The position numbers and the translations under genes were made by a program. This document shows positions 1-33,749 of a stretch of 43,428 nt of DNA, in pieces (the first letter of the stretch is position 1; each line of letters starts with the position of its first letter). The DNA lies in the IMG/VR virus record IMGVR_UViG_3300044858_004848, positions 1-43,428 of that record. The stretch is one strand, 5' to 3'. Origin of the DNA: a virus. The notes below the pieces were generated by a model. That model made no database searches and was not told the origin of the DNA. It saw only the letters and a program-made list of their open reading frames with translations.

Positions 1-3000
1 CAAACCCGCCGAGCGCATCGGCCAGCTCATTATCATCGATATCGCCCGCAAGGTATTTAGAGACAATATCTCTGTATGGTTTTGACTGCTCTGCATTTTC
101 CAATACGTTTGTCATCCAGGGGTCAGCCATCGCAATTTCTGTGAGAGGGCTTTCGATGTCTCCAGGCACAGGATTCATTCCCTGGTCGTCGAACCAGAAT
201 GGATTAGGCTCATCATCAGCCTGGAATGGGTTGTAGTAACCACCAGTTGATTCGTCGTAGTAATAATCGTCTGAATACGTGTATTCCGATGCTGGACGAC
301 CGATATTGCTCTTTGGAAGAGTCCTTGGAGCTGGTGGCTCTTCATACGGGATACTCAGAATCTCGTCCTTGGTCAGGGTGTCAAATACTGCTCGCTTTGT
401 CATCTTTGTTTCTTCTGCGATTTCCGAAACAGTTCTTCCATCAGCAAACATCTGATGGACCTGGTACAACTGCTTCGACGCATAACGACGAGGCCTGATG
501 TCTGGGAATTGAGACAAGTCTGGCCTATCGAGGAGTTGATTATCTGAGTGGTCGTTAAAGAAGTTTGCGTGAGCAAAGGCTCGCGTATCGAGAATCTCTA
601 CCGTGCCACCTTTTTGTTTTCTTGCAAGTAGAACCTTTGAATCTCCGTCCCAACCCCATAAGTAGAACTCATCAGCCATTTTGGCAACATCTGGAATAAT
701 GGAGAAGTTTCGGCCTATCGTCGCTGAGATGATGTGTTTTGCGAGCTTTCTTGGGTCGGTCTTTTGTCTTTCATCAATACGGTCTTCGAGCACGCTTTCT
801 GGAGCAACCACATAGTGTGCCACGATTTCGTAGCCAGCATCTTTGGCGGCTTGGAGGGTCCCAAAGCCCCTGTTGTACTGACCGGTTGAGTCGTATACGA
901 CATCCTTGTCCTGCTCAAGAGCAACACGAAGAGCCATGTCTGCAATCACGCGCGACTCTTCGTGTACGACCGTTGCCCACTCGGTGTCGCCTGCAGCATG
1001 TGCTGCGACTGCCTCCGGAATGATTGTTTTGATTTCGTCCGCGTCGACATGTACGGAAGAATCAACACCAGGAATATTTGCTTCACCTGTTTTTCTCATT
1101 GTCGATTTGCCGCTTCCGGGTGCTCCACCTACAGAAACAAATCGCTTTGGCTCACCTGGTTTCCTGTTTGTTGTAACGGCGTTAGACATCGATACAGCAA
1201 CGCTCGTATACAGGTCAAAGAATCGGTCTTGGTCAACTTTTATGTTCCCTGCTCCAAAAGTAGTTGGCACATCAATACCGTCACTCGGTTTTGCTGGTCT
1301 GTACTTCTGCATTGAGTCCCACAGTTTTTCATCATGCGGAACCACTGGCGAAACGAAACCAATTCTATCGCTTAGCGTTTTATCTAACGGCGGAAGAGAT
1401 GCACCTTTTCGCGGGCTCGATGCTGGTGGAGTGGCCATCTTCCCTGCGATTACATAATCGTTTCTCAGCTTATTGAATTGTTTTCTAGCGCCAACGATGT
1501 TGGAGCTCAATTGCTGCAAGCTGCCACTACGGGCAACCGCTTCACGCTTGCCGTTTACTACCGGAATAAGTGAGGACTTGATGGGGGAGTAGTTTGGTGA
1601 CTGACGCAGCCTTCTTCTTTCCTCAGAGCTTGCTCTCCATTTCGTGTCTCCGTTATTCCACTTAATCGAGGCGTCAGGCAACGAATCAGCAGGAAGTATT
1701 TGATTCAGCCGTTCTGCGGCTTCCCTGAGTTCTGGAATTCCATAGAAGTTGTTGATGTCGTCGCCGCTTGTCTTGTTGAACCAGCCGTCTTTTCCAATAC
1801 CCCAGAATGGATACCATTTGCCCGTAGCGACATCCTTCTTTCCGCCGCGTCCAGAACTTATGTAGAAGGGAACATTGATATCGTCATAAAAACGGACGAC
1901 AACTACGGGTCTTTGTGCAATTGTCAGGATGCCCGATTCGTAACGCTCGCCATCTGGTCCGCTGAATTCAAAGTCAAAGACTTCGGCTATCGGGAGAATT
2001 TCCGTACTTCGGAGCCTATCCGACGAGGTCTTGATGAGCGTCATATCCTTTTTGGACGGACGGGAATTACCTGGATATCTAGTGGAGCTTTCGCTCAGAC
2101 TTTCAGGGAGTAGTTTGCTGAATTTTTTTTTTGACTCAGAATCCATTCCACCAGAAATCATTGGCTGGTCTAGCCGTGCTCCTTTTTGGGGGCCGCCGTA
2201 TCTATCACCGATATAAACCGGAGACTGAGGGTCATCAAATCTTGGGTCAAAATTCATAGTGGACCCAGAAATAAATCCGTCTTTGTCAAACGTTATTCTT
2301 GTGTCTCCGCTGGCTCGAGCTCGGTCAGCCGCTCGCTGGCCCATATCCCATTCTTTTGTTCCAGGAATCGGCTCGCGGTAATACATGTCGCTAATCGCCA
2401 GGTCTCTATCGGAATCATTTATGTTAAAGCCCAAGAAACCATCGTCGATGTCATCAGTTATTTCATCAGAGCCAAGATGATGCGGCATTTTGACAAAGTT
2501 GTCGTACTGTCTGTATTCGCCAAGTATCGCGTCTGCGACCCACGGCGGACGAATCTTATTTGTTGATGGCTCAACATATTGAGACATTGGCCAAGAGTCA
2601 AACAACTTATCAAGCTCTGGAATTTCCATAAAGTCGTCGTTGTCGTCAAAGTCGAAGTTATCGTACGACTCTCTGGCTGCAGGGTTGGACAAAACCTTGT
2701 AGGCCTCCGAGATTGTATACAAGCGGTCAACCGAGTTCGGTTCATTTTTCATCGCCCTGGACATGATTCCAGAAACCTCAGAAGTAAAAGCATCGTCAAT
2801 CTCGCGTTGGGGAGCTGATTCATCAACACCAAGCTCTCTGTATAAATTGCGTGATTCAATATTCGGAACACCCTTCATTGCGCCGCTGATTCCATCAGAG
2901 TTGTTCAACTTGGACATAACAGCAATCTGTCGAGCTCTCACGGACTCTGAGGGGACCTCAAAATACCTAGCGATATCGTCGATTGATGCACCGTCATTAC

Positions 3001-6000
3001 GCATGTTTATAATGTCAATGTCCGCGCCACTAAGGGAGGAATTATTCGTCGCGAGAACGCGCCGAAGAGCTTTGTGTTTGAATGTGTCAGTTTTTTCAAT
3101 TGCTGACGAGTAGGATTCGATTGATTGGCGCACAGCATCTTCTGACATCTTGAATCTTGAGGCAATATCCTTCACGGAAGACCCCATATGCTGATTCATT
3201 ATGTATATGTCTTTGTCGTTGTTTCGGAAGTCTCTAAGGTCTCTCGCGCTGAAGTAGACGCCATCTCTCTCAATATCGGTCATACCGCCAACCATGTAGT
3301 TCATGCTTGGCGTTCTTCTGTAGTTGATTACGTCGAGGTCGCGCTTGACTCCCATAAATTCATCAGAATTGTTTCTGCGAAGTTTATAAAGAGCTCGCTG
3401 CTCTATGGTCTTTACTCGTCCATTGTCCATTTTTGTGACTTCAGATATATCAGAAATCGAAAGGCCATCGAGTCTCATTCTTGTAATTTGCTCTTCGTCT
3501 CGGGAAAGTACATCTGCTTCGATATCGGTTAGCGCTTTACGGTAGATGGCGTGGTGTTCCGGCTGCAGCGATTCCACATTATCCCTGTATGACTCAACCG
3601 ATTCTCTAACCTCTGATTCGGTAAGTTTGTACTTTCTGGATATTTCCGAAAGAGACATCCGCTTATACATTGAGTCCACATACATGGCTTTTTGATTTGG
3701 GGACTGCTCATAGCGGCGAATTGAATCACTCATATCACCAATAGTTGTAGAGCCATCCCTGTCTTGCATGCCCATTCGACGAAGGGTGCTTCCAACTCTC
3801 CCTTTGGAAATATCCAAGATGTCTGCTATCTCTGCTGTTGACATCCCCTCAAGGGCGAGCGTCATCACGTCTTTTGCTGCATCGTTTCTTTGCTTCGTAA
3901 ACTTATCCTGCGGCTCGACTCCACGAACCGCGGTGGAGAACCTGCTTCGTGAGTTGCCAGTTGTGTTGAGTTTTCTTTCAGAGATTATTCTAAAAATAAG
4001 TTCATCTGTCGGAGCCAGGCCGGCTAGCTCGCTGCCTCTATCCGCTTTTGAATTATGACTTCTAATGAGGTCTTTTGGTTCTGGGGAATTTCCATTGTCG
4101 CGTATCGCGAATTCAAGCGCTGCTTTATCTGACATGAATTTAGCGATTGAGTATTTATCCATACCGGCCATACGCAAGTTGATTACGTCATCAATAAACT
4201 TTCTTGCAGCTGGGTTATCTCTTCCGTTGTCAAGACGACTTACCTTGTCAAATTCGTCAGGGCCCATTTCGGTCATTGCTGCACGCATCGCACCAGATAC
4301 TGCCCCAGGCGGTATCTCTGGAAGATTTCTCTTGGTTCTCTTTGGTGGCAATCCACGCTTGGCTCTCTCTGTGTTAATCAGAGCGTCTAGATGAGCATGT
4401 GCTTCTTTGATGATTCTTGCCACTCTCGGCTTGGATATTGCATCAAACTCCGAACCAGTTGGCCTCCAGCCCCCATTTGTTGTGTCTGGAAGTTCTGTTG
4501 GAAAAAGTTTTAGGCGTGGATTTTCTTGGTCAAATAAAGTTAGGTCTCGCTCAAGTCTTTCGGCGTTGTAGGCCACGCGCAATTCGTTAGCGTCTCGTAT
4601 TATTCTCTGTTGACGTTGTCTTGCCAACCAGTTGAGGTGGGAGAATTTTTCTCCCAGGGACGATAATTCCGGGTCCTCATGGGCGGAAAAAGCTGCATCG
4701 AACCACGCTGCGTGTCCGAATCCAAGTGGAATATCTCCACTGGCAAGGTCTACCAGTGGAACGAATCGAGCTGATTCTGCATCATCGCCAGCTGTTGGTT
4801 CCCAAGTGGATGGAACTTCCACGAGAACTGCAGAAACTTCTATGCCTTCGGCAAAACGAGGGTCCCAGTCTGGGGAATCGATTGTTCCCAGCTTCTGTGA
4901 AGTAATTAGGTCTTCCGGACGAAGTCCTGTTTCTTCGAGGGCTTCTCGTAGAGCTGAATCGAAAAGGTCCGCGTCTCCCTTGCTTTGGTCAAAAAATCCA
5001 CCAGGAAGAGCAACGGTTCCTTCACCATCTTTTCTATGTGGGCCAAAACCTCTTTCGATGACCAATGCCTCGAGCGCGCCAGTAGATGGGTTCTTCCTGA
5101 TAATTAATGCGTCTCCAGCCCTTTGCTTGGGGCGTTTGTCAACAGCAAATATGTATTCGTTTTTTGTTCCGTCAGCCTTGATTGGCGCAATGTCTGCAAG
5201 GTTTTGACGGTGAACCGAGGCAGCTCGATAACCACTTTGTCTGAGTCCAAGACGCGCAGCTTCCCACTCAGCTGTGTTTTGTGGAAGCTCTTGGCCACGT
5301 TGCTGTTCTCTAAATTTTCTCCCAAGAGCCAGGCTCGCCTTGTAGGCGGCGTCTTCGTTTGTATAAGACTCTGGTGACATTATTTCACCATGCCTATTGA
5401 CCATGTACCAGCGACCGTCTTCTAGTTCTTCTGGCACAACTTCTAGAAATCCACCAATCTTTAGTTTGTCTTTGCCGCCAAAATTCTTAATTCTTTCGTT
5501 GCGAGAAGTGCCTTCCATTCTGCCTGTTATGCCGGATTTGTAAAATTCTGTTGGTCTTCTGTTTACGTATGGAGTTACATATCTTGGTGTGCGAACGCTA
5601 GGGTTCAAACCAGTTTGACCGACTCGACCCGTTTGTTGACGTAAGCGAGCAGGATTTTCTTCATTCCCAAAGAGCCTTGGTGTATTGTTCACGGCTTCTA
5701 GTAGTCTCATGTAAGACTTTTCATTCTGGTTAAGCCGATTAAACGCCGGGGAACTCTCCATGCTTTTATTGTTATTACGAATTGCCTCTTGTATCTCCCG
5801 ATTGAATCGCTTATTAAACCCCGATGCGTTTCCAAGCATTGGCTTGGTTACATCAAATCCCGCGCGGTCATACCTCTTGAGAATTCGAGGGTCTGCAAAT
5901 CCGAATCTTCCTTCAGCGGCCCTCCGGGCACCTCTGCGAGCAGAATCTTCAGCTCGTCCAAGCGCCCCAGCACCCTTCATGAATCCGGTAATGCCCTGAC

Positions 6001-9000
6001 TTTGCGCCTGTTGCGATAGCGACTGCAATTCTCCCTTGAATCGCTCGAGCTCTTGTTTTCTTTGCCGCGCACGATTAAAAATTGCGGTTGTAGATGACGA
6101 ACCAGCCGGGTCGCCTGTCTGAAGAGCAAGAGAGCGCTCATATTCGACCAGGATGCGCAAGAGCCCGCGCTTCGTCTCGCCTGTTCTCCTGTCGACATAG
6201 CCAAACATTTCTTCGTTCCACTTATAGATGCGGTTCATATACCTAAGGAGCGGTTCTTTGGCCCTATTCCAACCGGTCTGGCCGAATCTATTTCGTTGAT
6301 TTGGATTTTTGGGGTCGACCTCGAATAATCCCGGTCTCGTTTTTAGTAGGGAAGAAATCATGCCGTGAAGCATCTGTTTCGTTCTTCTGAACTGGTCGTA
6401 TTCAATTCCAATCTTCTTTATTGTTTCGTCAAGATACGTAATTGCCCTATCGATTGTGTTCTGAAGGTCACTAGCTGTAGCCCTAGTGGAGACATTCGGG
6501 TTTGAAAGTCTTGCTATTTCGCGTATACCTTCAATTAGTTTTTTTGTCTTGGCTTTTTCGAATGCCGCTTTTCTTGTCTGAAAGGCCGTTCTTGCCACTC
6601 CATCGAGATTGGTCCTGTTTGCACTTGGTATACTGTTATCAACCTCGTGCATATGCAATGCCTGGACAACAGTGTTTACGTCTCGAATTTCTTCCTGAAA
6701 AGCAATTTCTTCTGGTGTTAAAGTCCCTACCTCAAATAAGTTCCAAAGCTTCGCACGTTCTTTTGCGGCAGCTTTCGTAGAACCCAAATACTGCTCATTT
6801 TGCTTTAAGCGCTCATCCTTTGCGAGTTCACCAAGCAATCTTCTGTATTGCGGTCCGCTGGTATCAATAATCTCTCCAGACGCATCAGTCACTCGTCCTG
6901 CTCTTGCTGAGAATGATGCCCCACCATAATTCTGCAGACCAAGTTGTTGAGCAAGATTATCGAGTGTCTCCCCAACAACCTCGCCAGTTTTCGGGTCTTT
7001 GCGGAATAGTTCAGGGTTTGTCTGCTGAAGCACATCGATTAGTTTGTCCCACCGAATATTGGGGTCAATCAACGCTGGGTCTGCGCCCTCTTCGAACTCG
7101 CCGTTGTAACGACTAAGTTCTTCCGGCACGTCCGTATATCGTGCAATTATGTGACTGTTGTGTATGTCTGACCATTCTTGTGCATAGTTTCCAGCCAGAT
7201 ACTCGTTCCACAAATTTTTATCTACTTGGTATTCTTTTGAATTAAGACCAACTTCTTTACCCTCGGCGTCAGTTACCTGGTTGAGAGGGTGATTTTTGTC
7301 GCCATCATAAGGACCGAATCTTTCCCAGTATTCATCAGTATCTGGAGCTGCAGTGGTTGGTTCTTGGTTTTTCTTGATGGAGGATATTGTGTCGCGTATA
7401 TTTTTCACATCATCCTTGGTGAACTCATCGCCAACTTCAGGGCGATTTTGTAGGCGCTCCGCCTGGGAGTCGAGGATGTCTTGGTTTGCTTGCTGCATTT
7501 CCTCAATCGAGGGAGGGTCTGGCTGCATGCCTCCTTCTTCTCCTTCTTCTTCTTCGCCATCAAGCAGGTCTCCGGGCGATAGCTCAAATTCGTCTTCGTC
7601 TTCTTCTGCTAAACCAGCTAGTGCGTTAATCAGCCTTCTGTTGAAAGCTTCGAGCTTGTTGAAGTCGGAAAGGATTGATGGCCCTATCTTGTTTTCTATT
7701 TCTCTGCGTTGTAATGCAAGGTTGAAGAGAACTTCCATAAGTTCTGCGTCTGTGAATGGTTTTTTTGTAGCTGGGTTGTCGTACATACGAAACAATTTGA
7801 ATGCCCCAGACTCAATCCATTCGCGCAACGTATACGGTTTCCCAGTTGATGTGTTTATCGGCAGAAGGCTTTCGTCGGGAACTTTTGTAGGGTCATTTAG
7901 GAATGTCTCAAGAGCCATTGCTTCATTTAGGAGAGAAGTTATGCCGTTTATCTGCTGCAATTCATTGAACATTTCAGGGTCAAAATTTTCCTGAATTACT
8001 TCAATTGCCTCGGATACGGCGTCAATCTGGTCTCGCAGTTCTTGTTCTGTGTAAGGTTCGTTTGTATCCGGATTGATTGGGATTTTCTTAACTGCTTTTA
8101 CTGGCTTCCCGCCATTGAGCCAAGTGGTTAGCTGTTCGTTGAAATTGTCTAAGTCCTTTTGCTCTGATTCATCGAGGAATCTTTGAAGAGCTGCGTCGAA
8201 TTCTGGGGTATCAACGTCGTACCCCTCTTCGGCAAGCACCTTGCGACCGACCTTCATTCTGTATTCAAGAGTTTGAAATGATGACGGTAGCGCCGCTAGT
8301 AGTCTTTCTGCATCTGACAGTCTTGCTTGGGTTGGAAGAAGTTGTGCTGCCTGCTCGACGTCCTGCACAGAAGGCGAGCCTGTGTTTGTTAACTCTGGCA
8401 AAACAAAAGTATTGAAGAATGACTGAATATCAGCATCACTCATTGCATCGATATCCAGGCCGGCAATTAGGCCACCTGCATTAAACTTCTTGTATTCATC
8501 AACAAACGCTTTAACTAGCGGTCTCTTAACTGATGCGGCAAGAGCAAGCTCCCTCGGGGACAGTGGCGCATTCTTTGCTTGATATGCAGGAACGGACATC
8601 CCAGGGACCGAAGATATATCTCCAATTGTCGATGTCCATAAATTATCCAATTGGGTATCGTCAAGAGCATCAAGCGCCTCTATGGACTTGGTTACGTCTC
8701 TGCCAGCAAGAACTGCGTTTAATGAAGGGAATTTCGCAGAAGCATTCGGGTCGATGGCAAATCCTTTGAGTTGCTGGCGCTTCCATTCTTTCCTTTTCCA
8801 CTCTTGCTCCTGTTTTGGCGTCATTGAGCCCGACATCTTGCCGGTGATTGTGTAACCACCAGCCATTGCGTCTGCAATCAAGTCGTCTCTTCTGTACGAA
8901 CGCGGAGTGCGCTGTTCAAAGGAAGCAGCAGAAGTAGTTCTCTTTGGCTGCACTTCGAACTGGTCGAGACCGCGGAATCCTGGTCGCGGTTTGCGTGAGT

Positions 9001-10726
9001 CGGAGAAAGTTTTTACAAGTCTCTTGTCATCTTCTCTAACACTTGGCACATAGCCAAGACTTATATTGCTTGAGCGGTCCGGGTTCCTTCCTGTCTTGAA
9101 TGTGTCGAACAGGTCTTGAACCATATTGTCGCGATTTTTTGATGAATCAGGATTTCTAAAAACGTATTGAACCATGGAGTCCCAGTCTCGGAACCTGCCT
9201 TCGGATATTGCTTCCGTGAATGCGTTTCTGGAGTTGGAAAACTTTTCAATTGCTCTGGTTAATCGTGGATTGTTGTTTGTGAATTTATTCCGGTTCGATT
9301 TTCTTAACTTTTTATGTTGGTTAATCGCTTGTTGTATTTCGTCCCTAACGACATCAAATCGGTCTGCAATTTCGGCAACAGTTGATTCACCAGTGATGAA
9401 CTGTCTGTATATTTCTGGACGACTATCCCTAATGCTTCGAATTGCGTCACGCTCGTACTGAGGTGGGTATAGTTTCGGCTCCGGTTTTGCATCACGCACT
9501 GCCGCACGGATTTCCGTTGTTGGCTTGGTCTCTGGGCGCTTTGACTGACGTATTTTTTTCGGCTTGGTCTCTTCGATGCGTCTAGTCTGTGTAGAACCTC
9601 TTCGAATTTTTCTTGGTGAAGGCTGTGTCCGCGCAATACTAGAAGGAAGCGTTGTCGCGTATCTTCCGTCGGCAAGTCGTTCAGCTCTACCAAAAGCACG
9701 TGCTTCATCAACCTGTGGTTGACGTCGTATTCTTCCAATGTTGTCTGGTGTACTTGCGGCAGCTCTCCGTGCAGCCTGGGTGATTCTCGTACCAATACGT
9801 CGTTCTTGAATAGTTCCTTCCTGGACGATGTTGTCTCCATCTGCGTCTCTTGCACTGGGGTCGAAGGTAGCGAATGCACCGCGAAGCTTTCCACCTATTC
9901 TTCTAGCTACCCGCCCACCAGTGGATGAGCCAAAATTTCTTTGTCTTGTTACTTTTCCTATCCGTGAGCCGATTGCCTTAAACTCGAAATCCTCGTAAAA
10001 CTCGATGTGTTTTTGCCCGCGGGTCGAACGCTTGCGTGCACGCTTCGCTGCTTCTGTGTTTTCAACGAACTGACGTCCCTCTCTGCTCCCTTGAATTTTT
10101 TTTCTATTCGTTGCGGCTCGTTGGCCGACAGTTAGACGGTTCCATGCTGCTGCAGGAAGATAGCGTCGCGTCACGTTTCCACGACGAGCAGGTTTGCCGT
10201 CAGAAGTGCGCCACTTTTGTTTTGTCCACTTCGAAAGTGAACGTTGTTTTTTTGTCTTTCCACCCTTGTAGCCACCACCAGCTTTTCTGTATGCGATTGC
10301 AAGTAGCTGAGCCTTCCTTGCACTCCACTGACCCGGGTTTCCACCCTTTGAGCCAGCCATAATTCTTTTCTTTAGAGTTTCTCGAACCTCTGGTTTTGTA
10401 TAGTTTGCGCTTTTGGAGTCGACCTTGCGACCACCACGACCGCCGATTACCCTGCGTACCTCGCGCTCAATTTCTTGTCTTCTAAATCTTCTACCTGAGT
10501 GGCCGATGCCAGATACTCTCCTGTAGTCAGATTCGTTTGTGCATGGCATCCATGATGCGGCTCCGCTTCGGTTGTTATATCTTCTGATTCCAATGCAACC
10601 GATTTGTCTTGCTCTAACTCTGGCCGAATCCGGGTTGTCAAACACGTCGGGGTCGGATGGATTCACGACGCGAGCGCCAAAAATCACCTTTTCTTCTATG
10701 TTTTGCATTTCTGCGGAATCATCCAT
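1..10726 (-). CDS. Giant multidomain phage protein (partial, at least 3575 aa): DUF5872-like, Nudix, HTH array, J-like, P-loop kinase
   Basis: The frame is open from an ATG at 10726 to the left edge, so the C-terminus is missing. Approximate residues: 124-226 resemble DUF5872 (DGKPARRG, RRYLPAAAW, QRAATNRKK); 293 has a DADGDN acidic loop; 430-480 an HTH; 500-1850 mostly helical; 1855-2010 a Nudix domain with LPGGFF and REALEETGL; 2291-2609 five HTH units, one very like sigma-70 region 4; 2620-2690 a J-domain-like segment (LYRELGV, ISEAYKVLSNPAARESYD) lacking HPD; 3190-3375 a zeta-toxin/AAA-type kinase with Walker A GAPGSGKST, HVDADE and YDSTG; about 3440 another HTH. Six I/V-T/S-G-x-M motifs (M631, 1583, 1737, 2147, 2617, 2861) fall between these units. 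The start has only a weak ribosome site and lies 103 bases after the previous gene. It is last in the structural operon, so I infer a virion or ejected polyprotein. The domain calls are good; the overall role is inferred. Confidence 0.85.
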   Translation of the reverse strand, partial: MDDSAEMQNIEEKVIFGARVVNPSDPDVFDNPDSARVRARQIGCIGIRRYNNRSGAASWMPCTNESDYRRVSGIGHSGRRFRRQEIEREVRRVIGGRGGRKVDSKSANYTKPEVRETLKKRIMAGSKGGNPGQWSARKAQLLAIAYRKAGGGYKGGKTKKQRSLSKWTKQKWRTSDGKPARRGNVTRRYLPAAAWNRLTVGQRAATNRKKIQGSREGRQFVENTEAAKRARKRSTRGQKHIEFYEDFEFKAIGSRIGKVTRQRNFGSSTGGRVARRIGGKLRGAFATFDPSARDADGDNIVQEGTIQERRIGTRITQAARRAAASTPDNIGRIRRQPQVDEARAFGRAERLADGRYATTLPSSIARTQPSPRKIRRGSTQTRRIEETKPKKIRQSKRPETKPTTEIRAAVRDAKPEPKLYPPQYERDAIRSIRDSRPEIYRQFITGESTVAEIADRFDVVRDEIQQAINQHKKLRKSNRNKFTNNNPRLTRAIEKFSNSRNAFTEAISEGRFRDWDSMVQYVFRNPDSSKNRDNMVQDLFDTFKTGRNPDRSSNISLGYVPSVREDDKRLVKTFSDSRKPRPGFRGLDQFEVQPKRTTSAASFEQRTPRSYRRDDLIADAMAGGYTITGKMSGSMTPKQEQEWKRKEWKRQQLKGFAIDPNASAKFPSLNAVLAGRDVTKSIEALDALDDTQLDNLWTSTIGDISSVPGMSVPAYQAKNAPLSPRELALAASVKRPLVKAFVDEYKKFNAGGLIAGLDIDAMSDADIQSFFNTFVLPELTNTGSPSVQDVEQAAQLLPTQARLSDAERLLAALPSSFQTLEYRMKVGRKVLAEEGYDVDTPEFDAALQRFLDESEQKDLDNFNEQLTTWLNGGKPVKAVKKIPINPDTNEPYTEQELRDQIDAVSEAIEVIQENFDPEMFNELQQINGITSLLNEAMALETFLNDPTKVPDESLLPINTSTGKPYTLREWIESGAFKLFRMYDNPATKKPFTDAELMEVLFNLALQRREIENKIGPSILSDFNKLEAFNRRLINALAGLAEEDEDEFELSPGDLLDGEEEEGEEGGMQPDPPSIEEMQQANQDILDSQAERLQNRPEVGDEFTKDDVKNIRDTISSIKKNQEPTTAAPDTDEYWERFGPYDGDKNHPLNQVTDAEGKEVGLNSKEYQVDKNLWNEYLAGNYAQEWSDIHNSHIIARYTDVPEELSRYNGEFEEGADPALIDPNIRWDKLIDVLQQTNPELFRKDPKTGEVVGETLDNLAQQLGLQNYGGASFSARAGRVTDASGEIIDTSGPQYRRLLGELAKDERLKQNEQYLGSTKAAAKERAKLWNLFEVGTLTPEEIAFQEEIRDVNTVVQALHMHEVDNSIPSANRTNLDGVARTAFQTRKAAFEKAKTKKLIEGIREIARLSNPNVSTRATASDLQNTIDRAITYLDETIKKIGIEYDQFRRTKQMLHGMISSLLKTRPGLFEVDPKNPNQRNRFGQTGWNRAKEPLLRYMNRIYKWNEEMFGYVDRRTGETKRGLLRILVEYERSLALQTGDPAGSSSTTAIFNRARQRKQELERFKGELQSLSQQAQSQGITGFMKGAGALGRAEDSARRGARRAAEGRFGFADPRILKRYDRAGFDVTKPMLGNASGFNKRFNREIQEAIRNNNKSMESSPAFNRLNQNEKSYMRLLEAVNNTPRLFGNEENPARLRQQTGRVGQTGLNPSVRTPRYVTPYVNRRPTEFYKSGITGRMEGTSRNERIKNFGGKDKLKIGGFLEVVPEELEDGRWYMVNRHGEIMSPESYTNEDAAYKASLALGRKFREQQRGQELPQNTAEWEAARLGLRQSGYRAASVHRQNLADIAPIKADGTKNEYIFAVDKRPKQRAGDALIIRKNPSTGALEALVIERGFGPHRKDGEGTVALPGGFFDQSKGDADLFDSALREALEETGLRPEDLITSQKLGTIDSPDWDPRFAEGIEVSAVLVEVPSTWEPTAGDDAESARFVPLVDLASGDIPLGFGHAAWFDAAFSAHEDPELSSLGEKFSHLNWLARQRQQRIIRDANELRVAYNAERLERDLTLFDQENPRLKLFPTELPDTTNGGWRPTGSEFDAISKPRVARIIKEAHAHLDALINTERAKRGLPPKRTKRNLPEIPPGAVSGAMRAAMTEMGPDEFDKVSRLDNGRDNPAARKFIDDVINLRMAGMDKYSIAKFMSDKAALEFAIRDNGNSPEPKDLIRSHNSKADRGSELAGLAPTDELIFRIISERKLNTTGNSRSRFSTAVRGVEPQDKFTKQRNDAAKDVMTLALEGMSTAEIADILDISKGRVGSTLRRMGMQDRDGSTTIGDMSDSIRRYEQSPNQKAMYVDSMYKRMSLSEISRKYKLTESEVRESVESYRDNVESLQPEHHAIYRKALTDIEADVLSRDEEQITRMRLDGLSISDISEVTKMDNGRVKTIEQRALYKLRRNNSDEFMGVKRDLDVINYRRTPSMNYMVGGMTDIERDGVYFSARDLRDFRNNDKDIYIMNQHMGSSVKDIASRFKMSEDAVRQSIESYSSAIEKTDTFKHKALRRVLATNNSSLSGADIDIINMRNDGASIDDIARYFEVPSESVRARQIAVMSKLNNSDGISGAMKGVPNIESRNLYRELGVDESAPQREIDDAFTSEVSGIMSRAMKNEPNSVDRLYTISEAYKVLSNPAARESYDNFDFDDNDDFMEIPELDKLFDSWPMSQYVEPSTNKIRPPWVADAILGEYRQYDNFVKMPHHLGSDEITDDIDDGFLGFNINDSDRDLAISDMYYREPIPGTKEWDMGQRAADRARASGDTRITFDKDGFISGSTMNFDPRFDDPQSPVYIGDRYGGPQKGARLDQPMISGGMDSESKKKFSKLLPESLSESSTRYPGNSRPSKKDMTLIKTSSDRLRSTEILPIAEVFDFEFSGPDGERYESGILTIAQRPVVVVRFYDDINVPFYISSGRGGKKDVATGKWYPFWGIGKDGWFNKTSGDDINNFYGIPELREAAERLNQILPADSLPDASIKWNNGDTKWRASSEERRRLRQSPNYSPIKSSLIPVVNGKREAVARSGSLQQLSSNIVGARKQFNKLRNDYVIAGKMATPPASSPRKGASLPPLDKTLSDRIGFVSPVVPHDEKLWDSMQKYRPAKPSDGIDVPTTFGAGNIKVDQDRFFDLYTSVAVSMSNAVTTNRKPGEPKRFVSVGGAPGSGKSTMRKTGEANIPGVDSSVHVDADEIKTIIPEAVAAHAAGDTEWATVVHEESRVIADMALRVALEQDKDVVYDSTGQYNRGFGTLQAAKDAGYEIVAHYVVAPESVLEDRIDERQKTDPRKLAKHIISATIGRNFSIIPDVAKMADEFYLWGWDGDSKVLLARKQKGGTVEILDTRAFAHANFFNDHSDNQLLDRPDLSQFPDIRPRRYASKQLYQVHQMFADGRTVSEIAEETKMTKRAVFDTLTKDEILSIPYEEPPAPRTLPKSNIGRPASEYTYSDDYYYDESTGGYYNPFQADDEPNPFWFDDQGMNPVPGDIESPLTEIAMADPWMTNVLENAEQSKPYRDIVSKYLAGDIDDNELADALGGF

Positions 10727-13184: not shown

Positions 13185-13564
13185 TACGGTCTCTTTTGTT
13201 GCTTCATGTACTCCGACTCGTGAAGTTCACCATTTTCTTTTGCATACAAATCCAAGGCCAATCGGTGGTTGTCGTTTGTTGCACTTCTAAATTTCTTTGC
13301 TTCATCTATTTCTTTTTTGAATTTAGATTCAAATTCGGAAAATGGTTTTGCATCACCGGTGACGAAATCTATTCTGGGTACTGATAATCCATCAATGTAC
13401 GCTTCCTTGAGAGCCATTTCATATTCACCTGCGACAAGGTCTTGACCTGCGATGAACATAGGTGGAAAATTCAAGTTTTCGAACAGGTCAAAGTATTTGT
13501 CTATAAATTTTCCGCGATTGTACTGATATCTCGCATCGTCTGAGTCGATGTTTGCATTGCTCAT
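13184..13564 (-). CDS. Small hypothetical phage protein (126 aa)
   Basis: This acidic, soluble, mainly helical protein has no membrane segment, signal peptide or recognised motif. Its stop overlaps the next gene and its ATG overlaps the stop of the 2129-residue gene, both as TAATG, which argues that it is a real, translationally coupled gene. It lies between two giant structural proteins, so a chaperone or adaptor role is possible, but nothing in the sequence proves it. Confidence 0.75.
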   Translation of the reverse strand: MSNANIDSDDARYQYNRGKFIDKYFDLFENLNFPPMFIAGQDLVAGEYEMALKEAYIDGLSVPRIDFVTGDAKPFSEFESKFKKEIDEAKKFRSATNDNHRLALDLYAKENGELHESEYMKQQKRP

Positions 13565-22695: not shown

Positions 22696-23040
22696 TCAAC
22701 TAGATTTCCGAAATCCTGGCTTGCGGACTGGCTGGATTTCCTCTAGTTGGTCGTAAAAATCTAAAGCTTTTTTATTATAAGGATTCTTTGATATCTTTCC
22801 GGGGTTTTCCGTGTTGTGCCTAGTGGACCAGTCACTATCCCTGAAGTCTAGCTTCCAGAAACGTTTCTGTCTGTTGGTCTTCATAACTGGGAAGATGTCA
22901 TTACGTCGTTCAATAAAAGAAAACAGCGGAACTGGGGATAATCTCTTGCCGTCAACAAACAGGCCGTTATACCTGTCGCCATCTGGAACAAAATAGAGAT
23001 TCCCAGTTTTTCCGACTTTGGCGATTAGGTACTTTTTCAC
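22696..23040 (-). CDS. Small hypothetical phage protein (114 aa)
   Basis: The GTG start overlaps the TGA of the 2021-residue gene (GTGA), so coupled translation is likely. The first 45 residues look like a small beta domain (YLIAKVGKTGNLYFVPDG). The C-terminus is basic and tyrosine/asparagine-rich. No family is recognised. A gap of about 70 bases separates it from the next gene, which has its own strong ribosome site. Confidence 0.7.
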   Translation of the reverse strand: MKKYLIAKVGKTGNLYFVPDGDRYNGLFVDGKRLSPVPLFSFIERRNDIFPVMKTNRQKRFWKLDFRDSDWSTRHNTENPGKISKNPYNKKALDFYDQLEEIQPVRKPGFRKSS

Positions 23041-26000
23041 TTTTCATTCCTGCCGTCTGTGAGTTTATCAAACTCTTCCTGTATCTTTTCCAGTCTGCTT
23101 CTGGAGTCAGAAATATTTTTAATGTTTTTGAACTTTGCCTGACGCATTGACTCAACAAGTTCTTCTATCTGCTTGTCTATTTTTGCCTCAATAACTTCTT
23201 TTGATGTTTTTGACTTGGGAGCCTTACTTGAGAATGAGCGCCCATCAAATACGTCCAATCCGTAGTCATTGGTTACTGCAAGATTAAAACCTCTTGCTTT
23301 CGCTAATCTCTGAAGTCTTTCGGCTTCTTCAATTCTTCTTAGATTTCTAAAGTCGTCTGAGATTTTCCTGTATTCGTTAACGTTGTCAATTCGTATGGCT
23401 AAATTTTTGGGTATCGCATTAATTGGCTCTAACCCAGACAAAATATCTTCGATTATTTTTTGCTCTTCTTTTGTGGCCGCAAAACTCCGTTTCATTTTTT
23501 CTTGAATTTTAGAAATTTCTTCGTCTGTCATGTTGTTGTCAGGGTCATCTGGCGGTGGTGGCGGCGGTGGTGCTCCTGCGCCGGAGGAAGCAATCGCAGG
23601 GCCTTCGTCTACATACTCAGTAACGGGTAAGTACTTAAGTTCTCTTGGTTTTTTTGCAAATTCTTCCGGCGTGGTTGAGTTTGTAATATCTAGAGAATTA
23701 AACGGAACCCTCACCTCTTCGATATCACTCGGCTCTATTCCGCCCATAATCAGGGCGTCCCTATTTCCCCATGCTCCGCTTATCCGTGGACGAGTTTGAC
23801 CGTTATCTTTTCTGTAGGCATTGAAATCATTTTTAAATTTTCCATAGAGAAGTTCGATGGAATTTGATTCACGTTCGTCAAATCTTCCGTTAGGGTCAAT
23901 GAGTGCGCGACCTATTTCGTCAGAATCTGTTGAGTTTGCCAGGACAGGAAATATGTGATTATCAAGGGCGTCACCGTTGCCGTAAGCTGTCCTTTGGCCG
24001 GTTTCTGGTTTTAGAATTATTTCAGCATCACCAAAAATAGAATTGAAACCATTGTTGCGATTTTCGTTACTTGACTTAAAAAGGTCAAACTTATAACGTG
24101 GAGAATTGACATCAACTTTATTAGAAAACTCCCTAAATGAAGCCTCTTGTTCAGCGAAGTCGCCATCGGAATGCACCATGTATCCAGTTATTGGGCGTTC
24201 TGCGTCGGGAAGGTCTGGAGAAATTCCAATGTCTGCTTCGTAGGCTTTTACTCTCTCTGACAGACGTCGCGGTTTGCCTGAATCGTCTCTTCGTAGCCCA
24301 TTTTCCATTAAGCTCGAAAGTTCTGCAGTGTTTACGTTTAGACGTGGTCTCTGGTCGATGCCAGCATGAAATTCAACTGCTGCCTGACGAAGGTCTGCCA
24401 GAATCTCGCGGTCTTCGGTATTGCGCATGTAGTTAGCAAATTCTGGGTCAAGTCCATTCATTGCAGACATGTATTTTGCGTCGCCATCGCCAGACTCTAT
24501 GAATCCTTTGATGTCTTTGATTATTTCTTGTCTTTTCGCAATTCGTGATGGTTCGCTTTGCTCGAGAGTTTCCGGTCTCCATAATTTACTGTTTGGTACC
24601 GAGCTATAGAACTCACGAGACTGTCTTCTGCCAAACTGTGGAGCAGAGCGCAAAGCAGGTGATGACGACATCTTTCCCGACACTCCATCACCTAAGTACT
24701 TTGCAAGCTCGGACTCCCATTCTTTTACATCTGAGTCAAAATCGTCTTGTGTTTTTTTGACGTACGCACTTCGCTTGGCTCTATCCAGAGCGTCTTTTGA
24801 CCAATTCTTTTCAATTGCACCATCAATCAAAAGACGCATTGATTCCGCTGTTGCTTCAGCGTCTTTGTCTGCTCTATGATGCTCTTTGCCAAGAGGGACC
24901 CCGAGGTATCTTGTTATGTCCGCAAGTCCATTGGATGGTGATTTTGTTCCATCTTTATTTGTCTTATGTGGTCCATCCGGATTTTCATCTGTGTACCTTG
25001 GGAGTGTCATGCCGGCCATATCTTTGAGGTCAATCCAGCCCCTTGCTTGCCATTCAATTCCCGCTTCACGGAGAGTGTCTTCAAGTACGTTCTTGTCGTA
25101 TGCGGCGTTTTGAACACCCATAATTGCATTTGGTCCAGCAAATTCAACAAGTTTTTTGTGCCCAGACTCCAAAGACTCAGCCCCCTGTAGGTATTGGTCA
25201 GTGAGGGGGTTTCCGTCTGCGTCGCGCAAGTTGTCTTTAGACCATTGCTGCAGAGGCTTTCCCGGATTGACAAATGTGTTGAATCTGTCTATTACTTGTC
25301 CGTTTTTTACTTTTATTGCGCCTATTTCTACCGGATTTCCGTTTTCCGTAGCGCGACCATATTTGTCGAATACTAAACCAGTTGTTTCATAATCAAGAAA
25401 GACTATTTCCTGGTCATTATATCTCTGTTTAAATTCTTCCCAAGAATTAACTCCAGCAAAAATATTTTCTGTTTCACCGAGCATTGGACCGTAGGTTGGC
25501 GTCCGTGGGTACTGAGGCACACCGTCTTTGTTTTTCTTGATTCTGCTCTGTCCTGCTTGTGGGGTCGAGCCGCTTCTCATAAAGCCGGTGATTGGGGCTG
25601 GTTTCGCATCGCTCCAGAAGTTTGAATCACCAAGTCTTTGGCGATGGTTTTTGCTCATTCCGGCCACCCAACTAGGCGGAAGCGTCACTTCAGCGCTACC
25701 ACCACTTCCAGCCTGGCGAATCAAATACTGCTCGACCTGTCCGCTTGGGATGTTTGCGTGCAATCCCGATTGGGTTCTCAGCTGCCTGGCTATTTTGCCG
25801 ACTGCTAAATCCTGTGCGTCAGTTGAAGACTCTGCTGATTCTGCTTTAAAAATCTTTGTTGCACCCATTTCGTTTAGCTGCTGACGAACAGCCTCTTCTG
25901 TTGCTTCTTTGTCTGGTGTACCAGTGAGTCTTCGGAAGCTTCCTGATTTGAGCTTTATCCCCTCACCAGGTTTTGGTGTAAGAACAGTATCAAGCGTATA

Positions 26001-29000
26001 TAGATTGTCGAGTGAATCTGGATTGTCTCTTAGCACCTGAGACAGTGGCGCTATTAAGATAGTCGTATCTTTTTCTGAGCGCTGCCTAAATATATGTCCA
26101 CCAACAAGGTGATTTAATGCGAAGTGAATCGTGTGGCGAGGAACCCTTACCTTCTTTCCGGATTCAGTTGTTTCCTCAAAGTTAGAACGAGGAGAGATGC
26201 TTATGTCTCCATTTTCATAACTTGTTTCATGTACAACATACAAGTCATCTAGGCTCAAATCCTCAAGACCAGCTCGGGTTATTGTTCTTTCCTGGTATTC
26301 ATCAAGTTCGATGGGTTCATACAATTTTCCTTCTGCTTCAGAGACTCGCTTGCTTCCTTTTTCCGCTAAACCATCGAATTCCTTTGCTGCCTCCGTGTCA
26401 CCGCGTGATGCTCGATACAGAAGGGCGTCGACATCATTCGAATCCATGTCTCCTTTGCCTAGATGGGCATTGAGCCACTTCTCTGAATATTCGCGACCTT
26501 CCTTACTGGTTCTGGATTTTCCGGTTATCTCAAATGGGTTTTTAGGAATAATTTTTATTGATGAGTCATCGATTGATATTGCGTCGGGATTATCAAATAC
26601 TATTTTTTCGCCGTTTATTTCGTGGACCTTGATGTCGACATCACCAGACCTGCTGCCATCGAAACGATTCCTAACACCCGTGACCGTTGTTGGCACCAGC
26701 GGGGACATCCTTCCAACGATTGGTGTAGATGATTGCTGAGTTCCCAATGCTGATTGCAGCATTCCCGGCAGCGATTGACGCTCTTCGGTGAATGGCCTGT
26801 TTGTGTTTATTGAACTTATCGTGTCTTGATTTTTCCAGTCACGAGAAGAAGTGGTTCTCTGCTGTAATGAGGATGACCTCATTGCTCCAGTAATAGCCGA
26901 GGAACTCCTATTTCTATTGCTTCGTGGATAGTTTTGGTCTACAGCTCTTCTGACGGCCTGTGTTTTAAGTGTTGGCCTTTGTTGTGGCAATCCAGAACCA
27001 GCCATGCGACCACTAATATTCCATGCGTTTCCAGGAACACTAAAAACATTCTGTCCAATGTCGTCCATCTGGGAACGGTATTGTGCCTGCGTCCGTGTGG
27101 CTCCCTGGGCTGAAGCCATTGTTCGCGCGAACTCATCAACCGTGGATGGGATTCCTGTTTGCCCACCTGTTAGTACCGGGTCTCCAAACAATCTTCGGGA
27201 TGCGAAGAACTCTGCGCGGGCTTCTATGTTTGATGTTGCCGCATAAACACCACCAGAAAACTGTCTCATCAACTCCTGGTCGTCAGCATCATCGGTGATG
27301 TTGTTTTCAATTGCCTCAGCTAGCGCATTATGAAAATTGTTTAAATCGGTCTCCAGGTCTTGCCTTGTGTACCCGGTCGAACCTCCCCAACTTCCAGAGC
27401 GAATATATTGCCTTCTGCTTAGATTGTTTGCTGAGTCGATTAACAGCTGAATACTTCTGTTTCCTGTTGGATTCGCAGCTTGCCTAAAGTCAATCATCCA
27501 TGCATTGACTTGTTTCTGTCTTTGCCACTGGGGACCACCCTGCTGTGGTTTTACGAGTGTTTGTGCAAGCGGATATCTCTGAAGATTTTGCGTTTGGAAT
27601 CCAAGTGTCTCCATAACACTCGAGAAGTGCGCAACGTGGCCCCACTCATGGTTGGCCAAATAGTGCATGTCACCCTCAACAGAATCAGCGACTCCATTTG
27701 CTCGACCATTTCTGTCAAAGCCCGAGCGATTTACCTGTGACCACATTTCCCATGGATTCATAACAAGGGAGAACTGAAGTCCACCCTGTTCTGCGGTTCT
27801 TCCCTGAGCCGCGTTTGATGCTGCTTGGCTAATTCTTCTTCCTCCCGTTGAAGGCGAGGGAGCAAATGCATCAAATCTAACTTCGAACGCTGACCCCATT
27901 TCCGTATCTATCGCGAAAGAGGTAACCCATTTTGCCTGCTCTGGATTTGCAATTGCATTTTCCATCCAGGAGTACCAGTATTGAATCAAAGATGCCTTCA
28001 GTTTTGACCTTTCCATCCTGCTCAAGCTCATTGGAATTGCTTGGTCAAACATTTCTTCTATTTCTGCTTGTGGAACGTTTGGAAATAGTTCGGCCATTGC
28101 GGAAACGAATTGAGCCTTTTGGCTTATGTCGCCGATTGGTCTACCGGCCGGGAAGTTCTGACTCGGTGGGAGTCTTAGTCCGTCTGGTCGGTTTGGGTTA
28201 TTAAATCTATCCCTTGTGGAGCGAGCAAGTTCGGTGGCTCTTCTGCCTCTCCAGACTTGTTCTTTTAATCCAAGCTGCCACACATTGTTGCCGACGCCCT
28301 TCGGTGCTCCACGCTGCTTGCCTCCAGTTCTCGCTGAAGGGTTTGGTATGAGACCAAACCTCGTAGCCCTCATGGCTCCCGAGACTGTATCGCTAACCAT
28401 TTGTGGAGTGGGCGCAATTCTGCCACCGTACCCCATTGCTTCTTGAACTCTTTCAAAACCAAGTTCTCTAATTTGTTCAGCGTTTGCTCTAGCTGCATCG
28501 AATCCACTAGCAACTCTTCCGCCAACCTGGGTTGACATCTGGGTTGCGCCAGCTGTTGCTCTACGCACTGCACGAGCTCCACTTTGTGCGGCAGTTCTTG
28601 GTGACGGTATGAAGCAGTTAGAGCCAGTTATGTCTGTAAATTGGTTTGCAGCTGGTGTTCCCGGAGGGCAGCGAAGCTTGTTTTTATCGTCAACCCATAA
28701 GCCTCTTGTTTTGGCTGCTCTTCGCAGTAGCGAGTCAAGGCTGTCCTTTAGTTTCCTTCCAAGGACCTTGTACTCGATGTCATTCAGTTCACCCGATTTA
28801 AATTTCGTCGGAGAGGAATGTTTGTGTGTTGACCTAAAAAATGTTGAATCTGTATCCAGCATATTTGGGTTGAAAGTGCAAAAATGCATTCTCTTGCCTG
28901 GTGGAACAAGCGGTATTACGTCCCCCGGCTCCCATGTCTTTATGTATTCTTCATACGGGTTTGAATATTTTACTGGAGGCTTATTTACTTCTGGTTTTTC

Positions 29001-29102
29001 GGCCTTGGTCTCTATTTTGGGAATGAAACCTATTTCTAATTCGCCATTCTTGGACAGGTTGTTTATCCTGCGTTCTGCGAAATTGGAATATGAATTAGCC
29101 AC
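23037..29102 (-). CDS. Giant phage polyprotein (2021 aa): zinc metallopeptidase motif plus DEDDh 3'-5' exonuclease
   Basis: GTG start at 29102 with GGAG about eight bases upstream. Residues about 145-170 hold the paired-cysteine module (RCPPGT, NQFTDITGSNC). Residues about 170-310 are Arg/Ala-rich. HEWGH at 485-489, followed near residue 629 by EARAEFFASR, fits a gluzincin metallopeptidase. ISGRM, ITGAM and IVGRM end at 700, 741 and 799. A conserved-looking domain (VVHETSY, HFALNHLVGGH) spans about 950-1120. ITGFM (1175) precedes a DnaQ-type exonuclease: DYETTG with D1237 and E1239, NAAYDKNVL, and HHRADKDAEAT with the His near 1409 and Asp 1412. VSGKM (1478) follows it, and ITGYM (1642) opens another segment. 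A seven-proline run precedes a coiled-coil C-terminus. Both catalytic sites look intact. I infer a virion polyprotein whose exonuclease may act on DNA in the infected cell. Confidence 0.88.
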   Translation of the reverse strand: MANSYSNFAERRINNLSKNGELEIGFIPKIETKAEKPEVNKPPVKYSNPYEEYIKTWEPGDVIPLVPPGKRMHFCTFNPNMLDTDSTFFRSTHKHSSPTKFKSGELNDIEYKVLGRKLKDSLDSLLRRAAKTRGLWVDDKNKLRCPPGTPAANQFTDITGSNCFIPSPRTAAQSGARAVRRATAGATQMSTQVGGRVASGFDAARANAEQIRELGFERVQEAMGYGGRIAPTPQMVSDTVSGAMRATRFGLIPNPSARTGGKQRGAPKGVGNNVWQLGLKEQVWRGRRATELARSTRDRFNNPNRPDGLRLPPSQNFPAGRPIGDISQKAQFVSAMAELFPNVPQAEIEEMFDQAIPMSLSRMERSKLKASLIQYWYSWMENAIANPEQAKWVTSFAIDTEMGSAFEVRFDAFAPSPSTGGRRISQAASNAAQGRTAEQGGLQFSLVMNPWEMWSQVNRSGFDRNGRANGVADSVEGDMHYLANHEWGHVAHFSSVMETLGFQTQNLQRYPLAQTLVKPQQGGPQWQRQKQVNAWMIDFRQAANPTGNRSIQLLIDSANNLSRRQYIRSGSWGGSTGYTRQDLETDLNNFHNALAEAIENNITDDADDQELMRQFSGGVYAATSNIEARAEFFASRRLFGDPVLTGGQTGIPSTVDEFARTMASAQGATRTQAQYRSQMDDIGQNVFSVPGNAWNISGRMAGSGLPQQRPTLKTQAVRRAVDQNYPRSNRNRSSSAITGAMRSSSLQQRTTSSRDWKNQDTISSINTNRPFTEERQSLPGMLQSALGTQQSSTPIVGRMSPLVPTTVTGVRNRFDGSRSGDVDIKVHEINGEKIVFDNPDAISIDDSSIKIIPKNPFEITGKSRTSKEGREYSEKWLNAHLGKGDMDSNDVDALLYRASRGDTEAAKEFDGLAEKGSKRVSEAEGKLYEPIELDEYQERTITRAGLEDLSLDDLYVVHETSYENGDISISPRSNFEETTESGKKVRVPRHTIHFALNHLVGGHIFRQRSEKDTTILIAPLSQVLRDNPDSLDNLYTLDTVLTPKPGEGIKLKSGSFRRLTGTPDKEATEEAVRQQLNEMGATKIFKAESAESSTDAQDLAVGKIARQLRTQSGLHANIPSGQVEQYLIRQAGSGGSAEVTLPPSWVAGMSKNHRQRLGDSNFWSDAKPAPITGFMRSGSTPQAGQSRIKKNKDGVPQYPRTPTYGPMLGETENIFAGVNSWEEFKQRYNDQEIVFLDYETTGLVFDKYGRATENGNPVEIGAIKVKNGQVIDRFNTFVNPGKPLQQWSKDNLRDADGNPLTDQYLQGAESLESGHKKLVEFAGPNAIMGVQNAAYDKNVLEDTLREAGIEWQARGWIDLKDMAGMTLPRYTDENPDGPHKTNKDGTKSPSNGLADITRYLGVPLGKEHHRADKDAEATAESMRLLIDGAIEKNWSKDALDRAKRSAYVKKTQDDFDSDVKEWESELAKYLGDGVSGKMSSSPALRSAPQFGRRQSREFYSSVPNSKLWRPETLEQSEPSRIAKRQEIIKDIKGFIESGDGDAKYMSAMNGLDPEFANYMRNTEDREILADLRQAAVEFHAGIDQRPRLNVNTAELSSLMENGLRRDDSGKPRRLSERVKAYEADIGISPDLPDAERPITGYMVHSDGDFAEQEASFREFSNKVDVNSPRYKFDLFKSSNENRNNGFNSIFGDAEIILKPETGQRTAYGNGDALDNHIFPVLANSTDSDEIGRALIDPNGRFDERESNSIELLYGKFKNDFNAYRKDNGQTRPRISGAWGNRDALIMGGIEPSDIEEVRVPFNSLDITNSTTPEEFAKKPRELKYLPVTEYVDEGPAIASSGAGAPPPPPPPDDPDNNMTDEEISKIQEKMKRSFAATKEEQKIIEDILSGLEPINAIPKNLAIRIDNVNEYRKISDDFRNLRRIEEAERLQRLAKARGFNLAVTNDYGLDVFDGRSFSSKAPKSKTSKEVIEAKIDKQIEELVESMRQAKFKNIKNISDSRSRLEKIQEEFDKLTDGRNEK

Positions 29103-33665: not shown

Positions 33666-33749
33666 GTTGTGGCGCTTTCCATAGTGTTTATCCAATGATA
33701 AACAATTATGAGACAGTTCTGGCGAAACTATTCTCGAGTTTTAGTAAAG

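Follow-up and report, generated by a model that had tools for sequence, protein, structure and literature searches.

The virus record IMGVR_UViG_3300044858_004848, analysed here over its whole 43,428 bases (the window), encodes five helix-turn-helix (HTH) units in tandem (2891-3880, minus strand), all within one open frame. They belong to a giant gene (2..10726, minus strand; 3575 amino acids inside the window, the open frame being cut at window position 1) whose product, judged from its sequence, is a "polyvalent protein" encoded among head genes. A full-length copy of this gene is present at L001:3164-14911, on a 160-kb IMG/VR contig (L001) whose HTH array is identical to that of the window; it encodes 3915 residues and lies directly upstream of the major capsid protein gene. 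The reading that we favor, tentatively and as somewhat short of an even chance, is that the array is a multi-HTH DNA-binding cargo segment of a polyvalent polyprotein, which would be packaged, cut free and act on incoming phage DNA.

Profile searches of the whole array against Pfam revealed matches to Sigma70_r4_2 (7.1e-20), Sigma70_r4 (1.1e-18) and GerE (2.4e-12). The unit cores begin at residues 2297, 2358, 2423, 2517 and 2581. When the units were tested singly, just two exceeded the curated cut-offs, namely unit 1 (A type; 3752..3880, minus strand; residues 2283-2325) with Sigma70_r4_2 at 1.8e-7 and unit 3 (A type, sigma-region-4-like; 3362..3505, minus strand; residues 2408-2455) with Sigma70_r4 at 6.9e-6; the segment RVKTIEQRALYKLRR of unit 3 is located at 3374-3418. 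The other three units, all on the minus strand, gave weak Pfam matches on their own (0.002-0.04): unit 2 (B type; 3557..3697; residues 2344-2390), unit 4 (B type; 3077..3220; residues 2503-2550) and unit 5 (A type; 2891..3031; residues 2566-2612), the last of which has profile matches to the GerE-class proteins RcsB/EvgA. In leave-one-out profiles, units 3 and 4 and a single unit with its core at residue 3432 obtained 13-27 bits (27 bits for unit 4), compared to at most about 5 bits for shuffles, and units 1, 2 and 5 and a single unit with its core at residue 450 obtained 3.6-5.7 bits, level with or barely over the best shuffles. Units 2, 4 and 5 are regarded as HTHs because of the module duplication, the conservation in orthologues and the predicted fold described below. 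Units 1-3 were also matched by phrog_323, a 'D5-like transcriptional regulator' (3.2e-12), and a PDB sequence match to '8vd6 CAP repeat' involves five near-identical repeats, all matching unit 1 only.

AlphaFold2 (AF2) predicted a three-helix HTH in each of the five units, including unit 1. The second AF2 model had a mean predicted local distance difference test (pLDDT) score of 67 and reached about 80-91 over most of units 2-3 (about 88-91 in unit 2), and a first model, made with 4 sequences, was weaker; the unit-to-unit arrangement in the AF2 model is not confident (predicted template modeling score, pTM, 0.38). Foldseek searches of the PDB with both models led to nothing significant (best E 0.013, template modeling score, TM, below 0.3), and a search of a viral library retrieved a mixture of phage proteins that included several HTH proteins and a D5 protein (best E 0.0012). 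When the profile of units 2-3 was aligned with that of units 4-5 using hhalign, 105 columns were aligned with E=9e-18. The best pairings were unit 2 with unit 4 (5.6e-11) and unit 3 with unit 5 (3.2e-9), most other pairs lay between 1e-4 and 1e-6, and unit 1 was closest to unit 3 (8.5e-7). From these pairings the order A-(B-A)-(B-A) follows, in which a two-HTH module is present in duplicate, once as units 2-3 and once as units 4-5. The duplication and the Pfam E-values of the array rule out a chance repeat. Thus, both checks by which the preliminary description had wanted the HTH identity examined, profile search and structure prediction, gave a positive outcome, and the tandem of five that it described is present. 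However, the pattern SxxDIA...SY that it gave for the units needs correction, as the 'SY' ending is true of units 2 and 4 only and the shared core reads S/T-x-x-[DE]-I-[AS]-x(8,9)-V.

Relatives of the giant protein were found by searching with its N-terminal region and with its zeta-kinase region. L002 shows about 90% identity along most of its length and keeps the five-unit array. For the array, a ratio of non-synonymous to synonymous substitution rates (dN/dS) of 0.13 was obtained in the comparison of L001 and L002, and it is therefore under purifying selection. Further relatives are L007 with L006/L088/L089, L008 with L087, L086, L005 with L090, and L110, the contig of which belongs to a metagenome-assembled genome labeled Actinomycetota. 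All five units are kept in four further phage lineages, L007, L008, L086 and L110, at 20-24% identity to the window, and the divergent orthologous arrays are basic (isoelectric points of 9.4-9.9). The domain order common to the relatives is Nudix, array, J-like domain, zeta-type kinase and HTH. A search of 50,697 phage records with the array gave zero matches, and the family is known almost exclusively from metagenomes. The hosts are probably freshwater actinobacteria, an assignment to actinobacteria that is based on WhiB genes in four of six related records; whiB has been used likewise as an indicator of actinobacterial hosts in published work (PMC6802176).

The head block has the order terminase, portal (33750..36038, minus strand), prohead protease (31050..33695, minus strand; Peptidase_S78/HK97-type with a long extension) and then several very large proteins. 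Among these large genes, the giant gene comes last ahead of the major capsid gene in L001, L086, L087, L088 and L090; as in L001, it directly precedes the capsid gene in the other four. The virion link assumed in the preliminary description is therefore supported indirectly, by gene order and polyvalent architecture. In the parts of the account of polyvalent proteins drawn on here (Iyer et al., 2017; PMC5512222), injection in the early phase is proposed and HTH domains are infrequent members. The giant protein shares with this class that it is a very large phage protein of the head-gene block joining unlike enzymatic and DNA-binding domains: Nudix, five HTHs, a J-like domain and a zeta kinase reside in one polypeptide, encoded between portal/protease and major capsid gene. 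Zeta-toxin-like kinases, ADP-ribosyltransferases (ARTs) and GNATs are among the domains published in those parts, and their counterparts here are the zeta kinase and, in homologues, ADPrib_exo_Tox or GNAT. Differences concern processing, for which embedded metallopeptidases were proposed in the same source whereas the candidate enzyme here is the separate prohead protease, and the five tandem HTHs and a repeated ISGRM-type motif, window-family features of which the consulted parts of that source make no mention. The window protein gave no match to MPTase-PolyVal or ArdcN, which are frequent but not required in polyvalent proteins; these domains are carried by giant proteins with the same type of zeta kinase in L094 and L103.

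The repeated motif, [IV][STA]G.M (typically ISG[RK]M), occurs at 57 sites in six giant proteins and the 2021-residue protein of the window, compared to an expectation from composition of about 0.1 per protein, and a looser form occurs 8-12 times per giant protein versus 1.4-2.2 times in shuffles. Only 2 of the 57 sites lie inside called domains, where 10.9 would be expected. At the DNA level, a pattern for the motif has 15 sites in record G004 and 14 in G005; all of them are on the coding strand and almost all fall within the head block, and the reversed control pattern had no sites in either; the records of L001, L005 and L086 have one site apiece because looser motif forms are used there. 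Motif positions are common to orthologous large proteins, and the motif also recurs between domains of large head-block proteins in L140, L142, L088, L087 and L110. In L087, L088 and L110 it is found 9-11 residues before and 17-33 residues after the array. The minus-strand sites in the window protein are ITGKM (8834..8848; residue 627), ITGFM (5978..5992; residue 1579), ITGRM (5516..5530; residue 1733), VSGAM (4286..4300; residue 2143), which forms the upstream boundary of the array segment, ISGAM (2876..2890; residue 2613) directly at the array end, ISGGM (2144..2158; residue 2857) and IAGKM (1436..1450; residue 3093) upstream of the zeta kinase. Internal translation starts are an unlikely explanation for the sites: the residues I, S, G and R/K are conserved and synonymous codons vary freely, indicating that selection on the motif acts on the protein. 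A function of ISGRM as cleavage site of the major capsid protein was rejected, as that protein has no strict match. The interdomain motif may be a site of cleavage, perhaps by the prohead protease of the phage, a suggestion based on the HK97-type prohead protease encoded in the head block and on a giant Salmonella phage in which packaged proteins are documented to be cut at multiple sites (PMC10052503). The same appearance would be expected of a docking or linker motif.

In the mechanism that we infer, the precursor would be made alongside the head proteins and packaged, and its ISG[RK]M-type interdomain sites would probably be cut, freeing the array as a fragment of its own. The five HTHs would form a flexible strip contacting nucleic acid at multiple points, and in a new host the array would most likely bind incoming phage DNA at several points, protecting the DNA and setting early transcription, in resemblance to the action on T5 DNA of D5, a phage T5 protein with multiple HTHs. 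D5 appears to be a better functional analogue than a sigma factor because it contains, by reading of its sequence, several HTH-like units, because Sigma70_r4_2 is its best Pfam match as well, and because its record describes a DNA-binding protein needed for replication and late transcription; homology is not claimed. Its charge is near neutral. In contrast to the array, which is embedded in a giant protein of the head block, D5 is a free protein of 255 amino acids encoded among replication genes.

A number of results weigh against the array being a released DNA-binding segment of this kind. The hhalign comparison of the array with D5 was weak (probability of 12%), the array of the window has a slightly acidic net charge (-2), and in its units 2 and 4 the recognition helices are likewise acidic. 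Going upstream from unit 1, more than 100 residues separate it from the first strict motif both in the window protein and in L086. Strict matches were also missing from the portal, protease and major capsid proteins, so that the assignment as a prohead-protease site stays tentative. Also, L005 has no array at all. In L005/L090, an ADPrib_exo_Tox match (5.9e-5, slightly short of the Pfam cut-off) covers residues 1923-2101 between the Nudix and J domains, so that an ADPrib_exo_Tox-like domain in place of the HTH array is an apparent case of cargo exchange in one slot.

The array might instead be an internal head protein that condenses or organizes capsid DNA or aids packaging and has no role in a new host. 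In agreement with this are the head-gene location and the fact that the array has been conserved while its sequence diverged, and the first 631 residues of the giant protein are strongly basic (net +68), as expected inside a capsid. We consider it unlikely, since the zeta kinase, together with the ART or GNAT of homologues, suits a living host and not a capsid, and since the array itself, in the window phage, is not basic.

The preliminary description had called the helices promoter-recognition-like and had suggested that they redirect host transcription at entry. The first part holds for unit 3 by sequence only: it is the sole unit near region 4 of extracytoplasmic function (ECF) sigma factors across its whole length, and the TIGR02937 sigma70-ECF model gave 4.8e-8 over units 2-3, below its cut-off. 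However, the sigma-like recognition helix is not kept in the orthologous unit 3 of L007, L008, L086 and L110. Compared to sigma-70 factors of ECF type, with which the array shares that units 1 and 3 singly pass the Pfam region-4 cut-offs, it has five HTHs versus one region-4 domain, and sigma region 2 was found neither in the giant protein nor in six related records, which are possibly fragments. A strict sigma factor is ruled out by the missing region 2 and the lack of conservation of the unit 3 helix. These two results and the lack of a significant Foldseek match make a redirection of host transcription at entry one possibility, not a conclusion. In its more specific form, one or two A-type HTHs would bind the flap of the host RNA polymerase (RNAP) or the -35 element, like a minimal sigma (T4 gp55) or gp33, and direct the host enzyme to phage promoters on entry; minimal single-HTH sigmas of phages and gp33 have been described (PMC7824862). 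For such a role speak the resemblance of unit 3 to ECF sigma region 4, PDB profile matches to sigma-4, and a majority of sigma factors among the top PDB fold matches. Furthermore, no large subunit of a multisubunit RNAP was found in the related records, which may be fragments; given the lack of both this subunit and sigma region 2, the host polymerase is probably used. The WhiB family is associated with control of sigma-A, and the WhiB genes in phage records hint at host sigma-A control. Nonetheless, we judge it quite unlikely: besides the lack of region 2 and of conservation in unit 3, every PDB fold match is non-significant (E above 0.01, TM below 0.3) and unit 5 is nearer to GerE than to sigma. 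Moreover, R584 and E585, which we take to be the main -35 contacts of Escherichia coli sigma-70, correspond to N and G here.

Least probable of these alternatives, and improbable in our view, is that the HTH units have lost DNA binding and are protein-binding or spacer modules. It would fit that the recognition helices are acidic in units 2 and 4 and that orthologues have drifted strongly (20-24% identity), but the canonical HTH turn and the hydrophobic core are retained under a dN/dS of 0.13, the A-type recognition helices of the window protein are basic, and so are the divergent orthologous arrays.

Beyond the DNA-binding cargo segment itself, we suggest with due caution, as a possibility worth considering though doubtful enough to stay well open to revision, that a few giant polyproteins supply much of the injected cargo. 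A dedicated ISG[RK]M-type signal between their domains would be cleaved by the prohead protease that the phage itself encodes, one gene would yield about ten early effectors including the five-HTH protein, and the slot would be swappable by recombination. Polyvalent proteins are a recognized class that has been little tested, and the family adds two features to it, a module of five HTHs conserved in a cargo slot and a short motif strongly enriched between domains. The motif is the most testable new element, as it predicts the cut positions of the precursor and the products; if true, it would give a simple read-out for the maturation of large phage polyproteins and for the domains that reach the host.

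Among isolated phages, Gordonia phages Chidiebere and GMA6 have a major capsid protein that is 48-49% identical. In Chidiebere, the block before the capsid gene contains an annotated VIP2-like ART (gp26), and gp27 and its GMA6 counterpart were read as HNH/metallopeptidase proteins. Unlike in the window family, these are separate genes, and both the HTH array and the ISGRM-type motif are missing. As gp27 is annotated as an HTH protein it was considered as an isolated orthologue, and it was rejected since no HTH array was found. The 'helix-turn-helix' label of Chidiebere gp27 (L143:8837-11752) looks wrong, its sequence reading as an HNH/metallopeptidase protein of polyvalent type.

Outside the array, the giant protein contains further domains, all encoded on the minus strand. 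The N-terminal domain (10037..10414; residues 105-230) matches phrog_17747/phrog_14910, is DUF5872-like and also occurs in marine phages. The Nudix domain (4745..5089; residues 1880-1994) was matched with 5.7e-8 and the zeta-toxin-like kinase domain (725..1159; residues 3190-3334) with 6.3e-22. Between array and kinase lies a DnaJ-like J domain (2660..2848; residues 2627-2689), in which no HPD motif was found in the window; HPD is present in L086, L087, L088 and L110, and in L002 a region inserted near the zeta kinase includes a J-like stretch that does have HPD, at about residue 3234. No receiver or autoinducer partner domain for GerE-like HTHs was found in the giant protein. The C-terminus differs among relatives, being GNAT-like in L088/L110 and, by reading, in L086, with other ends elsewhere. 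A C-terminal ART in L001 (YRG...STS...E by eye) remains a weak reading, Pfam and PDB sequence searches having been empty. The extra single HTH units mentioned in the preliminary description were recovered at 9296..9421 (residues 436-477, core at 450; left-out score 5.3 bits, weak in Pfam), behind the kinase at 353..475 (residues 3418-3458, core at 3432) and in the C-terminal extension of the prohead protease (residues 667-703, about 31587-31697, minus strand), where an ITGR(T), near to the interdomain motif, precedes the unit.

Of the other large head-block proteins, also on the minus strand, the one of 2129 amino acids (13564-19953) has no Pfam or PHROGs match, and the second large protein of 2021 amino acids (23037..29102) has an exonuclease domain at residues 1226-1460 with six strict interdomain motifs around it. 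In L001, a gene for an aspartyl/asparaginyl beta-hydroxylase (L001:16679-17221) is located immediately behind the major capsid gene.

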